A DNA stretch of 37,698 nucleotides, from contig JAJZJC010000027.1 of assembly GCA_021810205.1 (NCBI GenBank), positions 1-37,698 of the forward strand, written 5' to 3'. The position numbers were made by a program, and so were the translations under genes. Within the stretch, counting starts at the first letter, position 1. Each line of letters begins with the position of its first letter. The notes below the pieces were generated by a model. That model did not search any database. It saw only the letters and a list, made by a program, of their open reading frames with translations, and was not told where the DNA came from. This stretch comes from Actinomycetes bacterium. GTDB taxonomy: Bacteria; Actinomycetota; Acidimicrobiia; Acidimicrobiales; RAAP-2. Shown here in pieces: positions 2,925-12,018 of this stretch.

Positions 2925-3470
2925 ATGGAGGCACGTCGCGTGGAGCTGGACGGCGTCGCGATCGAGCTGGTGACGGGCGACATCGTGCGACAGCCCGGCA
3001 TCGACGCGGTGGTGAACGCGGCAAACGCAGAGCTGCTCCCCGGTGGTGGCGTTGCCGGTGCCGTCCACCGCGCCGCTGGTCCCGGGCTCGCCGCGGAGTG
3101 CCGACCGCTTGCGCCCATCTCGCCCGGCGACGCCGTCATCACGGGAGGGCACGACCTCGCGAACCCCTATGTGATCCACTGCCTCGGACCGGTCTACGGC
3201 AAGGACCGCCCCGAAGACGAACTGCTCGCTACCTGCTACCGGCGCGCGCTGGAGCTCGCCGAGCGCCACGGCCTACGCTCAGTGGCGTTCCCGGCGATCT
3301 CGACCGGCGTCTTCGGCTACCCGATGCCGCTGGCAGCCGAGGTGGCCATCTCGGCGGTGCTCTCGATGCTCGAGGAGCTCGAATCGGTACGGACGATCCG
3401 CTTCGTGCTGACCGAGGACGAAGCGTTGCGCCACCACGACGATGCGTTGCGACGCCTCGCTGCACTCTGA
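2925..3470 (+). CDS. Macro domain (ADP-ribose-binding/hydrolase) protein
   Basis: IELVTGDIVRQPGIDAVVNAANAELLPGGGVAGAVHRAAG...AFPAISTGVFGYP macro-domain signatures. Confidence 0.93.
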   Translation: MEARRVELDGVAIELVTGDIVRQPGIDAVVNAANAELLPGGGVAGAVHRAAGPGLAAECRPLAPISPGDAVITGGHDLANPYVIHCLGPVYGKDRPEDELLATCYRRALELAERHGLRSVAFPAISTGVFGYPMPLAAEVAISAVLSMLEELESVRTIRFVLTEDEALRHHDDALRRLAAL

Positions 3471-3540
3471 CCGACTGCGGAGCGCCTGGCGTTCGCTCTG
3501 ACTCCTCGTCGCAACCACGCGCGGCGCGCGCTGCACGCGG

Positions 3541-3580
3541 ACGCGCGACTCGGGGCCGCGAATGGCCCCGAGTCGCGCGT
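3541..3580. terminator. Bidirectional hairpin terminator between convergent genes
   Basis: Perfect 17-bp inverted repeat acgcgcgactcggggcc-gcgaat-ggccccgagtcgcgcgt between genes ending at 3470 (+) and 3601 (-). Confidence 0.75.
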
Positions 3581-3600
3581 ATCGAGTCAGCTGAAGATCG

Positions 3601-4242
3601 TCAGCTCGCGCAGACGGTGATCCCTGTTCCACTGGCCGTTGCGGAGAGGTGCCCGGCCGACGAGGAGAGCGACAGGAACCCTTGGCCGCTGATCGGCGCG
3701 GACGAGGCCCCTGGGAGGCCGGGCGTCGACACGCAACCGCCCTTGCCAGGTGTGGGCAGCGACGGTGCCGGCAGTGTGCCCAGCGTCGGCAGTGACGGAA
3801 GCGATGATGGAGATGTCGACGACGAAGATGTCGACGACGAAGATGTCGACGCCGGAGATGTCGACGCCGGCGGGGTGAGCGACGGCAGTGTGGGGAGCTT
3901 CGGCGGTGTGAGCGACGAGGACTTGACCGTGATCGAACCTCCGCCCGCGGCGCTGTTTCCACCGAGCGTGCCCGATCCAGAGAGAGATCCTCCCGATGGC
4001 GAGGCCGTCGCCTTGGTCGACAGGCTCCCGCTGGTAGATGTCGCCGAGGGAGTCAACGCCGTCTTGGCGCTCGTCAGCGTGCCCTGGGTCGCCGCTGGAG
4101 CGGCGCCGATGCCCATCACTCCTGCGGCGGCGGCACCGCCGGCGGCAACAGCGAGGGCGGCTGCGGCGCCGAGGCGTCCGACGTGCCTCCCCTTGCCTCG
4201 AGGGCCCGCGTCGTGGTCGGTCCGTAGGTTCTGTGTCGTCAT
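3601..4242 (-). CDS. Secreted/surface Ser-Thr-Pro-rich low-complexity protein
   Basis: N-terminal positively charged + hydrophobic Ala-rich segment, then long S/T/P/G-rich region with PASTSSSSTSSSSTSPSS repeats. Confidence 0.6.
   Translation of the reverse strand: MTTQNLRTDHDAGPRGKGRHVGRLGAAAALAVAAGGAAAAGVMGIGAAPAATQGTLTSAKTALTPSATSTSGSLSTKATASPSGGSLSGSGTLGGNSAAGGGSITVKSSSLTPPKLPTLPSLTPPASTSPASTSSSSTSSSSTSPSSLPSLPTLGTLPAPSLPTPGKGGCVSTPGLPGASSAPISGQGFLSLSSSAGHLSATASGTGITVCAS
3812..3871. repeat. Four tandem 15-bp repeats (gatgtcgacgacgaa type) inside the Ser/Thr-rich CDS
   Basis: Units 3812-3826, 3827-3841, 3842-3856, 3857-3871; last two diverge at the 3' end of the unit. Confidence 0.85.
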
Positions 4243-4379
4243 GTTCCCTCCTCGTGGGGTGGGGATCGCCTACATGCGGCCGCCTCGACGCGCGGCTCGG
4301 CGAGGCCGAGCGACGGGCCGCGGCGGCTCGAGGAAGGAACGGGTAGCGCGGGGCGATCTTTCGATCCCGCCGTGTTCCC

Positions 4380-4442
4380 TCGCCGGCGGGCCGAGCATCG
4401 TCGCCGGCGGGCCGAGCATCGTCGCCGGCGGGCCGAGCATCG
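4380..4442. repeat. Three perfect tandem copies of a 21-bp repeat (tcgccggcgggccgagcatcg)
   Basis: Identical units at 4380-4400, 4401-4421, 4422-4442; intergenic. Confidence 0.9.
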
Positions 4443-4495
4443 TCGTCGACGTGGCGGCGATCGCCTCAGGAGGCGGGCGCGCCTGCCAGGGCCGG

Positions 4496-5287
4496 TCATC
4501 GCGCAGGGTTCGAGGTGCGACGGAGAGGGAGCAGCGCACGATAGGCCGCGTCGGCTCGGCGGCGGGTGAGGACGTCGGTGGCGACGAGCTGGTCCAGTAC
4601 GTGCTCCTGGCGCTGCTTCGCCAGGGTGTAGTGCTCGAGCGGGTTGTACGCAGACGGTGCCTGTGGCAGCCCCGCGAGCATGGCTGCTTCCGCCCAATCG
4701 AGCCGGTCGGGGCTCACCCCGAAGTAGCCGCGTGCCGCTTGGCTTGCCCCCCAGTAGCCGTTGCCGTAATAGATGGCGTTCAGGTACATGTCGAGGATCT
4801 CGGACTTCGAGTACTCGAACGACAGTTTCACCCCGAGCGCCAGGTCTTGCAGCGTGGTGCCCAGCCCGGGCGGCTGGGGATACAGCTGCTTCGCCAGCTG
4901 CTGCGCGATCGTGCTGCCACCGGGGTCGCCGCTGCGCTCGAGGGAGGCGACGGCGGCACGTGACGCACCGCTGAGGACGTTCACGAAGACGTTTGTGTAG
5001 AAGTGCTGGTCCTCGACCGCGACGATGGCCTTGGCCAACTTGGCCGAAAGGGGAAGACGCAACAGTGCGCCGTGGTGGGCGCGCACGATCGCAGCAACCT
5101 TGCTCTGCGCGTCGCTCACTCCGGGTAGCGCGAGCTCGAAGCTGAACGCCGCGACGGTCAGTGCCGCGAGCAAGGAGGCCGCGAGGACCGCAGCCCGCGC
5201 GATGCGTCGCCGCCACCGACGGGAGCTACGGCCCGCGGAGGTCTCCTGTCGGGTGCGCGGTTCCGACCTCGAACACCGAAACCTCAT
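4496..5287 (-). CDS. Monofunctional peptidoglycan glycosyltransferase (GT51)
   Basis: VEDQHFYTN...GGSTIAQQLAKQLYP...YSKSEILDMYLNAIYYGNGYWGASQAARGYFG...EAAMLAGLPQAPSAYNP GT51 motifs; no transpeptidase domain. Confidence 0.93.
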   Translation of the reverse strand: MRFRCSRSEPRTRQETSAGRSSRRWRRRIARAAVLAASLLAALTVAAFSFELALPGVSDAQSKVAAIVRAHHGALLRLPLSAKLAKAIVAVEDQHFYTNVFVNVLSGASRAAVASLERSGDPGGSTIAQQLAKQLYPQPPGLGTTLQDLALGVKLSFEYSKSEILDMYLNAIYYGNGYWGASQAARGYFGVSPDRLDWAEAAMLAGLPQAPSAYNPLEHYTLAKQRQEHVLDQLVATDVLTRRRADAAYRALLPLRRTSNPAR

Positions 5288-5573
5288 GTCCCCCTCAGCT
5301 TGCTACTGCGAGACTCCGCTTGGTCGTCGGGTCGGCACTGGCGGCGCCTGCGACCGTGCGAGCCTGGTCCCATGCAGGGATCGGCGAGCTCTCCATGAGG
5401 GCAACTCGACCGCTGCTTCGAGATGTCCGGTCGGTCTTTCGTGCCAGGTTGCACGCTTCACGACACGCGTGGGGTGCTCCGCTGCATGCCGGGGGCGCGA
5501 GCAAAGAGCAGCAATCGGCGCGAAGATGCCACCGGCTGCGGCGAACCGATCGGCGCGGGCCGGGATGTGGACG

Positions 5574-7256
5574 ATGGCGGGGGGCGTCATGGAGGCGTCG
5601 GGGGTGAGCCAAGCGGGCGCCGTTGAGCGGCGCCTCGGGCTGACGGTGGACGCTACGGCCGTCCGAGAGGCGGCCTATGTCCGCGCCTTCGAGCTCGCCA
5701 TGGACGCGCAGACGCCGCATCCTGGCACCGTCAAGGAGATCGCGGCGCTGCTCGAGGAGGGGCTGGCGAGAGACTGGCCGGAGGTCGTACGTGCTGCGAT
5801 GTTCGCTGATGCGGCGGCGTCCAAGGGACGATGTCATGGCGCGTTCCGAGATGCGGTGCAGCGCCTCCTGTCGCGTGCCGAGACCGACGCGGCGCCTGCA
5901 ATGATCGCCGTGGCGCTCGCGCTGCGGGCGACGAGGGACGTCGCCGACGGCGACTCCCGGTTCGGAGCGGGAGCCGACGGCGACCTCGTGCGCGCGTCAG
6001 TCATCTTGGAGTCCTCTGACGGCCCGGTCATCGAGCGGATCTCCGCGCACAACTCGTGCGCGATGGCCTATGGCGAGCGATGGCTGTGGGAGATCGCGGA
6101 CGAGCAGTACGCGGTCGCCATGAAGCTCGCGCCGGATCCACCCCCGCCGTGGGCACGCTTCGTGCTGCCGGCCGTGGTCTACAACCGTGCCGAAATGCAG
6201 GTGAGCTGGGCGTGCATCCTCCGTCAGCTCGGTGACGAGACCGGGGTCCGAGAACGCTGGCAGGTCTGGCAGGAAGTGATCACCGCGGCGCCAAAGGTCG
6301 GGATGCCTGCGTCATGGCAGATCGAGCTGCGTGCGTTGGGCACTCTGATCGGCGCACTGGCGCGCGAGGACATCGCCGACGATGCGCGCGCCCAACTCGA
6401 GGCGCTCGATCCCTCTGGCCACCCGGGTGCGTCGCCCGAAGGGTGGTTGCAACTCGCGATTGCCGTGGCCGACCAGCGAGAGGGTCGGCTCGAGACAGCG
6501 CACCATGCCGTCGAGCACGCGCTCGCTACGATCGACTGCCACCAGTCCGGTGACGCGTACGATCTCGCGCTCTGCATTGCCGCCGAGCTCGAAAGTGTCG
6601 AGCGAGAGGACACGCGCCATCCTGCGGCTGCCATGCGGTACGCGCGGCGCCAGCTCGCGCTGCGCTGGTCGTACCGGTCGGCCGCGCACGGCTCGGTGCT
6701 CGGCCGTATCGAGTCGGAGCGACTGCGCCGAGAGCACGACGTGGTGACCCAGCAAGCGCACCTTGACGATCTGACGGCGCTCTTGAACCGCCGGGGCTTC
6801 GCCCGCTATCTCGAGTCGATCGCGCGTCAGTCGATCGGGACCATTTCGCTGCTCGTCGCCGACCTGGATCGGTTCAAGAGGGTGAACGACCGGTTCGGTC
6901 ACCAAGTGGGCGACATGGTGCTCATCTCCGTAGGCCAGGTGCTCCACGCCCATGTGCGTCCGGCCGACTGCGCGGTACGTCTCGGGGGGGACGAATTCGC
7001 GATCGTCCTTGCGTCGGCACCCCCCGACATCGCTCGTCGGCGTGCCGAGGCTCTCATCGACGCGGTTCGTCGACATCCCTGGCACGAGCTCGCGCCAGGG
7101 CTCTCGATCACCATCAGCGTCGGGTTCGCATCGGGTGCGACGGCCGACTTCGAAGAGCTGACCGAGCGAGCGGACCGAGCGCTCTACTCGGCCAAACGAC
7201 AAGGACGCAACCGGGTCGTCTCCGACAGTGCTCACGAACGGGCTCGGGGTTCGTGA
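5574..7256 (+). CDS. GGDEF-domain diguanylate cyclase with N-terminal helical/TPR-like region
   Basis: C-terminal DDLTALLNRRGFARYL...DLDRFKRVNDRFGHQVGD...VRLGGDEFAIVL; start chosen near 5574/5589, listed ORF overextends to 5025. Confidence 0.88.
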   Translation: MAGGVMEASGVSQAGAVERRLGLTVDATAVREAAYVRAFELAMDAQTPHPGTVKEIAALLEEGLARDWPEVVRAAMFADAAASKGRCHGAFRDAVQRLLSRAETDAAPAMIAVALALRATRDVADGDSRFGAGADGDLVRASVILESSDGPVIERISAHNSCAMAYGERWLWEIADEQYAVAMKLAPDPPPPWARFVLPAVVYNRAEMQVSWACILRQLGDETGVRERWQVWQEVITAAPKVGMPASWQIELRALGTLIGALAREDIADDARAQLEALDPSGHPGASPEGWLQLAIAVADQREGRLETAHHAVEHALATIDCHQSGDAYDLALCIAAELESVEREDTRHPAAAMRYARRQLALRWSYRSAAHGSVLGRIESERLRREHDVVTQQAHLDDLTALLNRRGFARYLESIARQSIGTISLLVADLDRFKRVNDRFGHQVGDMVLISVGQVLHAHVRPADCAVRLGGDEFAIVLASAPPDIARRRAEALIDAVRRHPWHELAPGLSITISVGFASGATADFEELTERADRALYSAKRQGRNRVVSDSAHERARGS

Positions 7257-9635: not shown

Positions 9636-11228
9636 TCAGATGTCGGTCGGCCGTGCACCGCGGCTGCCGATCTGCTCTTCGATCCGTTCGGGCTCCGTTT
9701 GCCAGTGCCAGCCCGCCGCCGCCGCCGGCGGCTCGAGCGGGCAGTCGGGGCCGAGGAGCCCCTGGACGGCTTCCTCGAGCTCGCGCGGGGTTGATGCCCC
9801 CACGCAGGTGATGGTGCCGTCCTCGTCGACGAGGATGTTCGTCGGCACGCCCCGCACCCCGAGCTGTTCGACGAGCTCACCTTCCTCGTCGACGAGCACC
9901 ACGCCGTTCACGCCCCACAGCTCGCAGAATGTGCGCGCCTCCTTGTAGGCGTTCACACCCTCCCACACGTTCACCAGGATGATCTCCAGGCCTGACCGGC
10001 CTGCACGTCGGCGCAGATCTTCGATGACCGGCGCTTCCGCGTTGCACGGGCCTCACCAACTGGCGAAGACGTTGATGACGTATTTCTTTCCGGCCCACTC
10101 CCCCAGATCGTGCAACTCCTTCGTCCACAGATCGGGCAGCCGGAGCGCCGGCATCTTCGAACCCACCATCGGATGGGTCGTCTCGATGACTCGGGTGGCG
10201 GGAGGACCCTCGAGGAGGTCCTCGGCGACCGTGATCGTGCCGCTGCCAGCGTTCGCCACCAGGATGCGGCCGGGATGCAGTGGGTCTTCGCACACCCCGC
10301 CAGGAGCGGTGCCCACGGGGATCCTGGACCACTCGACACCGTCGAGGCCCATCACGCTCACCGATCCGTCGCCGCGATTGGCCACGTAGAGCCGGTCGTC
10401 GCGCCCACCGACCGCCAGTCCGACAGGGGCATTCGGCACCGGCATCTCGGCAACCTTTTCGAGCTGGCGCCCGTCGATCCGGGTCACGGTGCTCGCCAGC
10501 GAGTCGGCGATGAACACGTGCCCCGTCGTGCGCTGGACACCGACGGCACAGGGACCCGCGAGAAGCGGGAGCGTGCCGAGGATGTCGAGAGTCTCGGCAT
10601 CCACGACGGTCACCGTCGACGCGACGAAGTTGACACAGTAGACGCGCCCGACCTCGAGGTCCGAGGCGATCGCGCCGGCGCCGAGCTCTGCCTCGACGAC
10701 GCCGATCCGCTCGCAAGTATCGAGGTCGATGACGCTCATCGTCGAGCCGATGGCGTCGCCCGAGTACAGTCGACGGCGTGCGACGTCGATGCACAGGCCG
10801 GCTGGATAGTTGCCAACCGGGATCGTGCCCGAGATCGTGTGGGTGTCCGCGTCGATCACCGAGACCTGGTCGGAGCGCGCGTCGGCCGTGAAGACCTTCC
10901 CGGTACGGTCGTCGACGGCGATGTCGATCGGCTCGCCACCGACGGGAATCGTGGCGACGACCTGCAGATCGTCGGGCTCGACGACGGTGACGGCGTTCGA
11001 TCTCGAGCACGCTACGTAGATGAGCCCCGTCCTCGGATCCACGACAACACCTTCAGGATCGAGCCCGACAGGCACTTCGCCCAGCACTCGATAGGCCCGG
11101 CCCTCGCCGCCGGTGTCGACGCGACACGAAGGTCCACCCTCGACGACAACGGGCTCGACGACAACGGGCGCGTCTCCGCGCGTCTGCGCGGCGAGATCGT
11201 GCTGTGACTCGTCGGGCCGGCCTGACAT
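9636..11228 (-). CDS. Candidate selenoprotein: YVTN/beta-propeller + C-terminal TlpA/ResA-type thioredoxin domain with W-U-G-P-C (UGA at 10055-10053)
   Basis: ORFs 11348..10053 and 9974..9636 are in the same frame; ...NVFASW-TGA-GPCNAEAPVIEDLRRRAGRSGLEIILVNVWEG...GVRGVPTNILVDEDG. TGA replaces the first Cys of CGPC; cis-Pro region present; AAGGAGG Shine-Dalgarno before ATG at 11228. Sec would be residue 392 of ~530. Confidence 0.88.
9998..10052 (-). promoter_or_regulatory. Putative bacterial SECIS hairpin immediately 3' of the UGA
   Basis: mRNA: UGA-GGCC-cg-UGC-a-ACG-cggaa-GCGC-c-GGUC-AUCGAA-GAUC-u-GCGC-cga-CGU-GCA-GGCC; ~18 bp (one G-U) in colinear segments, GGUC 24-27 nt after the UGA. Paired by eye. 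Confidence 0.55.
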
Positions 11229-11482
11229 GCAGCTCCTCCTTGGATCCAGCACTCGTCGTACCCGGCGATTGCGCGGAGGAACCGAATGCGGCTGGCGCAC
11301 AGTACCTCGGCGCCAGGCTGCGGGTGGTGCGTTCCGATGTGCACTCAACCGCGCGCGCCGGATCTCCGAGAGTTGTCTCCGAGTGAGCTTCCCGCGCTGG
11401 CGGCGTGGCGGCAGCGCGCCATGCCGACGCGTGGGTACCGCCGAGGTGCACGACCTGCCGGTGTCCGCCTACGCTCCACGCC

Positions 11483-11578
11483 GGAGGTGTCCAGGCGCCT
11501 GGTGGGCCTCCCCGCCTTCAAAGCGGGTGGGACGGGTGATCCCCGTCCGGCGGGTTCGATTCCCGTCCACCTCCGCCA
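11483..11578 (+). tRNA. selC: tRNA-Sec (anticodon TCA)
   Basis: GGAGGTG...CACCTCC acceptor, anticodon arm CCCGC-CTTCAAA-GCGGG (TCA at 11518-11520), long variable arm GGACGGG-TGATC-CCCGTCC, T-arm GCGGG-TTCGATT-CCCGT, discriminator G and encoded CCA. Confidence 0.93.
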
Positions 11579-11859: not shown

Positions 11860-12018
11860 ATGACCAGTCAGTCGGGGATGCAATCGCCGACGATCTGGCG
11901 GTGTGAGGGCTGCGGTGCCCTCGTCCACCCGGCCGACGCGGACGTGGCCGTCGCGTGGTGCCTGCGGTGCCGCAGGGTGGTGCGTGCAGTCGAGGACGGC
12001 GCCCGACGCCCGGCCTGA
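11860..12018 (+). CDS. Small zinc-ribbon-like protein (52 aa)
   Basis: ATG with upstream AAGGAG; MTSQSGMQSPTIWRCEGCGALVHPADADVAVAWCLRCRRVVRAVEDGARRPA with two CxxC knuckles. Confidence 0.6.
   Translation: MTSQSGMQSPTIWRCEGCGALVHPADADVAVAWCLRCRRVVRAVEDGARRPA

Follow-up and report, generated by a model that had tools for sequence, protein, structure and literature searches.

The window, as the whole analysed stretch of 37,698 nucleotides is called here, carries a single tRNA gene. It lies at positions 11483..11578 of the forward strand and is called tRNA-SeC(tca) by ARAGORN. The body of the tRNA (11483-11574) is followed by the discriminator G73 at 11575 and by an encoded CCA at 11576-11578. 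Its anticodon TCA, which reads UGA, occupies 11518..11520 (position 36 of the gene in the ARAGORN output). On the opposite strand, a divergent gene (9636..11228, minus) starts with an ATG at 11228 and encodes a seven-bladed propeller followed by a thioredoxin domain of the ResA/Redoxin type. This gene contains an in-frame UGA at 10053..10055 (minus), within a W-U-G-P-C motif that forms a UxxC redox site. The two genes are separated by an intergenic region of 254 bp (11229..11482), in agreement with the spacing of about 250 bp given by an earlier sequence-only reading of this DNA. A simple scan of this region for promoter and terminator consensus sequences, including the sigma-70 consensus, was empty.

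Identity of the tRNA gene

The assignment as tRNA-Sec, first proposed from the letters alone, is borne out by the covariance model that had been suggested as a check. In an Rfam cmscan search, RF01852 matches positions 11483-11574 with 67.8 bits (E 6e-12), above the gathering score of 47. The predicted fold of the selC strand has an energy of -53.4 kcal/mol, with z = -3.07 relative to shuffles. The gene shares with bacterial tRNA-Sec of the RF01852 family the UCA anticodon, G73 (also found in the relatives), a long variable arm, a 13-bp acceptor and T branch, a D-stem of 6 bp closed by a 4-nt loop, and the presence of selA, selB and selD in the same genome, selA being incomplete at a contig end. 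It differs in two respects, namely a 7/6 instead of an 8/5 division of the branch and a single bulged base in the D-stem. The variable arm (11530..11548, plus), seen both in the RNAfold prediction and in the Rfam alignment, consists of a 7-bp stem and a 5-nt loop. The earlier description of the coordinates, anticodon, variable arm, T-arm and encoded GCCA was correct throughout. In contrast, a conserved bulge of one base is the better reading of the G-G mismatch that it placed in the D-stem. The D-arm (11493..11509, plus) then has 6 bp, a UGGU loop and a single bulged G11497, and this model gives 6/6 pairs in all 22 unique relatives, including one in which bases 8 and 66 can pair.

The encoded CCA varies among relatives, several of which have GCGA or GCGG in place of GCCA. 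It is therefore not a conserved feature of these tRNAs, and in the species with GCGA or GCGG the CCA end is presumably added post-transcriptionally.

Positions 11483-11578 thus hold a genuine tRNA-Sec gene, of a known kind that carries a structural variant found throughout its lineage. The chance that they represent a pseudo-tRNA or a fortuitous cloverleaf is negligible, given that every arm is intact and that the sequence is conserved across many families of the order. UGA-reading tRNAs of other identity, of the allo-tRNA kind, exist in bacteria. An identity of this sort, with serine or cysteine as the charged amino acid, could also be suspected here from an acceptor/T division that departs from the textbook form. 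It is nevertheless very improbable in view of the RF01852 score, the G73 discriminator, the 13-bp branch and the 6-bp D-stem with its 4-nt loop, and of a genome that carries selA, selB and selD together with a formate dehydrogenase (FDH) gene having UGA at the canonical selenocysteine (Sec) site.

Division of the acceptor and T arms

The 8/5 division is the textbook form of bacterial tRNA-Sec. It does not define the family, since RF01852 also contains 9/4 and 7/5 forms. In the window's selC, an 8/5 division would oppose U8 (11490, plus) to C66 (11567), which do not pair, and the predicted minimum-energy fold is 7/6. The structural oddity pointed out from the sequence is therefore real at the level of the predicted fold. 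In this fold, G48 (11549, plus) forms a sixth T-arm pair with C66, with a predicted pair probability of 0.95 and a gain of ∼2.4 kcal/mol (-53.4 vs -51.0 kcal/mol). In 28 of 29 relatives, bases 8 and 66 are unable to form a pair.

A survey of tRNA-Sec across Actinomycetota comprised 29 sequences from the order of the window, 30 best-scoring sequences and 60 chosen by hand for family spread; its counts refer to unique sequences and carry no phylogenetic correction. G48 is present in 96/96 unique sequences with a 13-bp branch. C66 is found in 63 of these 96, where base 8 is U in 50, A in 12 and G in one, so that base 8 cannot pair with C66 in 62/63. G66 is found in 22, with C as base 8 in 16 of them. 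One sequence combines U66 with U8 and keeps only a G48-U66 pair. Six further sequences were parsed with a 12-bp branch and resemble the published 7/5 forms, while four could not be parsed. A group of nine actinobacterial sequences has G8, A66 and G48; neither 8-66 nor 48-66 pairs there, which leaves a mismatch inside the 13-bp branch.

In this sample, G66 accompanies an 8-66 pair (8/5) and C66 a possible 48-66 pair (7/6), and the 7/6 reading is widespread in Actinomycetota. About half of the sampled sequences have U or A as base 8 together with C66 and G48, as in the window, whereas the remainder show C8-G66 pairing (8/5), a mismatch in either arrangement, or a 12-bp branch. Because the failure of the 8/5 division is shared by 62/63 unique C66 sequences, it was treated as a variant and not as grounds for exclusion from the family. 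As the 7/6 form characterizes roughly half or more of the Actinomycetota sequences sampled, there is nothing special about the locus of the window, and an anomaly confined to this tRNA is ruled out by the survey.

Two geometries can be considered for the 13-bp branch. It may be that the 8/5 geometry is kept, with a tolerated U8 x C66 mismatch and an unpaired G48, so that 7/6 would be an artefact of a conserved G. This is supported by the presence of G48 in all 96 sequences, even where 8-66 pairs well, which implies that it is conserved for another reason, and by the modest energy gained with G48-C66. G48 being invariant, covariation in support of the G48-C66 pair is also limited to the one G48-U66 sequence. 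On the other hand, a single base change would create an 8-66 pair, and this step hardly ever occurs, base 8 remaining U or A in 62/63 of the C66 sequences, and the sequence with U66 and U8 retains a pair with G48 only. Retention of 8/5 is accordingly the less probable of the two geometries, and the branch most likely divides 7/6, with G48-C66 paired and base 8 free, a preference that is reasonable without being strong. In such an arrangement, C66 instead of G66 would move the partner from base 8 to base 48. Base 8 would be freed, as in ordinary tRNAs, and the 13 stacked pairs for SelA and SelB would be kept.

Secmarker (PMC5330540) gives 8/5 for bacterial tRNA-Sec, with 12-bp (7/5) forms and bulges as exceptions, and the same 8/5 division is found in PMC7609411, a review of non-canonical tRNAs. 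A 7/6 bacterial tRNA-Sec is mentioned neither in the searched passages of the two papers nor in the results of further literature searches; the coverage of the literature on tRNA variants being incomplete, a first description is not claimed. Whether much of Actinomycetota uses 7/6 tRNA-Sec, as a structural class beside 8/5 and 7/5, is a tentative proposal with slightly less in its favour than against it. The pattern offers a simple test of what is measured by SelA, SelB and seryl-tRNA synthetase (SerRS), either the total of 13 pairs or the position of the division. Secondary-structure annotation and covariance models built on an 8/5 or 9/4 division draw the 7/6 group wrongly.

UGA decoding and the divergent selenoprotein gene

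No selA, selB or selD had been recognized in the window, rightly so, as these genes are located on a different contig of the assembly to which the window belongs (3.0 Mb, 177 contigs, 72% complete). On the 6.5-kb contig C46, selB (3359-5062; 262 bits for the whole frame, cut-off 242) and selD (5158-6066; 328 bits, cut-off 125) are followed by the beginning of selA, which is cut off by the contig end. The complete absence of Sec machinery genes, named beforehand as an observation that would speak for another tRNA identity, is thus not the situation in this genome. Among 61 relatives, selA is present wherever a strong tRNA-Sec hit occurs, if the truncated copies in the window's assembly and in one other (G057) are included. 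The lone exception, a genome that is 58% complete (G006), has selA without a strong selC. In a separate observation, a frame directly upstream of selB at L014:2259-3098 has, by eye, the look of an AlaX-like alanyl-tRNA editing protein.

The genome also contains two fdhA genes with one TGA each (G000:C137:9653-11515 and G000:C13:16158-18020). The UGA site RT-U-HAPS was read in one of the two copies and in relatives, and a GGUCU stretch with complementary flanks is seen by inspection 18 nt after the UGA of the FDH genes. These FDH genes rule out that selC is kept just for the propeller-thioredoxin gene. The two fdhA genes score near-equally and may be either two copies or the product of a strain mixture in the assembly.

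When read through its UGA, the divergent gene encodes, according to Pfam and NCBIfam matches, an N-terminal propeller of the YVTN/NHL type, then a Redoxin/ResA-like domain in which the UGA lies within F-A-S-W-U-G-P-C. AlphaFold2 run on 11 orthologues (mean pLDDT 81, pTM 0.82) predicts 28 propeller strands followed by a thioredoxin fold. Among solved structures, YVTN/YncE-type propellers match best in both fold and sequence, and ResA-type thioredoxins in sequence. Thirteen family members, each with a Sec system, encode this protein. Each of the 13 copies in which the site is covered has UGA there, and a cysteine codon is seen in none. The median dN/dS is 0.20 before the UGA and 0.18 after it, so selection at the protein level is the same downstream of the UGA, and this part is presumably translated. 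These similar values on both sides, together with the invariant UGA, exclude that the codon is a nonsense mutation in a gene undergoing decay. Cysteine homologues at the UGA position are distant only, in CxxC domains of the ResA/TlpA type with about 25-37% identity, and a cysteine orthologue of the full-length protein was not present among the orthologues found.

A Redoxin/ResA-like domain with a UxxC motif is shared with the Redoxin-family and TlpA-like UxxC selenoproteins tabulated in PMC13188914, to which the neighbour of selC adds an N-terminal YVTN/YncE-like seven-bladed propeller. This fusion is not listed in that 2026 inventory of selenoproteins. Literature searches on selenocysteine in Acidimicrobiales and on propeller or NHL selenoproteins gave nothing relevant. 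A candidate selenoprotein combining a propeller with a UxxC thioredoxin domain is thereby added to those of the inventory.

A candidate SECIS hairpin (10011..10034, minus) begins 18 nt after the UGA of the propeller-thioredoxin gene. In 11 orthologues, 97.7% of its cells are paired and one pair shows a compensatory change; its energy is no better than that of shuffles and its synonymous conservation is not unusual. As a SECIS candidate the hairpin is suggestive only. A second hairpin with GGUC was discounted because its distance from the UGA, ∼55 nt, is too large for a bacterial SECIS.

The components present at the sequence level, namely the tRNA, the selB, selD and selA genes, the conserved UGA of the targets and the conserved linkage, are consistent with the known pathway. 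By homology, seryl-tRNA synthetase would load tRNA-Sec with serine, which SelA would convert to Sec on the tRNA with selenophosphate supplied by SelD. SelB would then bring Sec-tRNA to in-frame UGA codons marked by a SECIS hairpin. The targets would include the two formate dehydrogenases and the propeller-thioredoxin protein, with its UGPC active site and a presumed redox role. The gene at 11483-11578 is thus very probably a functional Sec tRNA of this uncultured Acidimicrobiales bacterium, acting with SelA, SelD and SelB in the decoding of UGA in FDH and in the propeller-thioredoxin protein. As far as sequence can, these data settle UGA decoding as selenocysteine in this Acidimicrobiales lineage.

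Gene linkage and cluster history

Recoding had initially been proposed from the linkage of selC with a UGA-containing gene, and it is supported by selB, selD, a partial selA and two UGA-containing fdhA genes in the genome, as well as, among relatives, by a UGA kept in 13/13 copies covering the site. The idea of a compact selenium module applies to some relatives, in which the propeller-thioredoxin gene is followed by selA-selB-selD-selC; it does not apply here, where selB, selD and selA are elsewhere and FDH is also a selenoprotein. In the comparison of neighbourhoods, likewise recommended at the outset, selC adjoins the propeller-thioredoxin gene in the window and in nine other members of the genus, with selB-selD-selA located elsewhere where checked. 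When the surroundings of selC in relatives were scanned for further UGAs with coding conservation, the neighbour gene came up, along with the tRNA itself and frame noise.

In three relatives (G003, G004 and G019), the propeller-thioredoxin gene is followed by selA-selB-selD-selC on the opposite strand, and the selABDC order recurs in a fourth (G023), where the contig stops at selA. Two of the four genomes with such loci are labelled as the same genus as that of the window. The SelD proteins of these four are only 43-45% identical to those of the selB-selD-selA type, which makes a replacement of selABD plausible. The simplest history is that there was a single selenium cluster from which, in most of the genus, selABD disappeared or was replaced, with selC staying beside the selenoprotein gene.

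The present linkage might then be a relic of the ancestral propeller-thioredoxin/selA-selB-selD-selC cluster, devoid of regulatory meaning. The four relatives with selA-selB-selD-selC, three of them visibly adjoining the propeller-thioredoxin gene, argue for such a relic, as do the other genus members with a lone selC and a separate selB-selD-selA of divergent SelD. Against it, the adjacency persists in ten genus members despite varying spacing, and the relic explanation is considered evenly balanced. A comparable proximity of selC to a selenoprotein gene, with other sel genes nearby in some relatives, is known from fdhA beside selABC in Pseudomonadales (PMC1794560). The window differs in that the partner of selC is a divergent propeller-thioredoxin fusion and that selB, selD and selA lie elsewhere.

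Downstream of selC, a frame of 52 amino acids (11860-12018, plus) contains a CxxC...CxxC pattern resembling a zinc ribbon, and similar DNA is found at the same place in several genus members.
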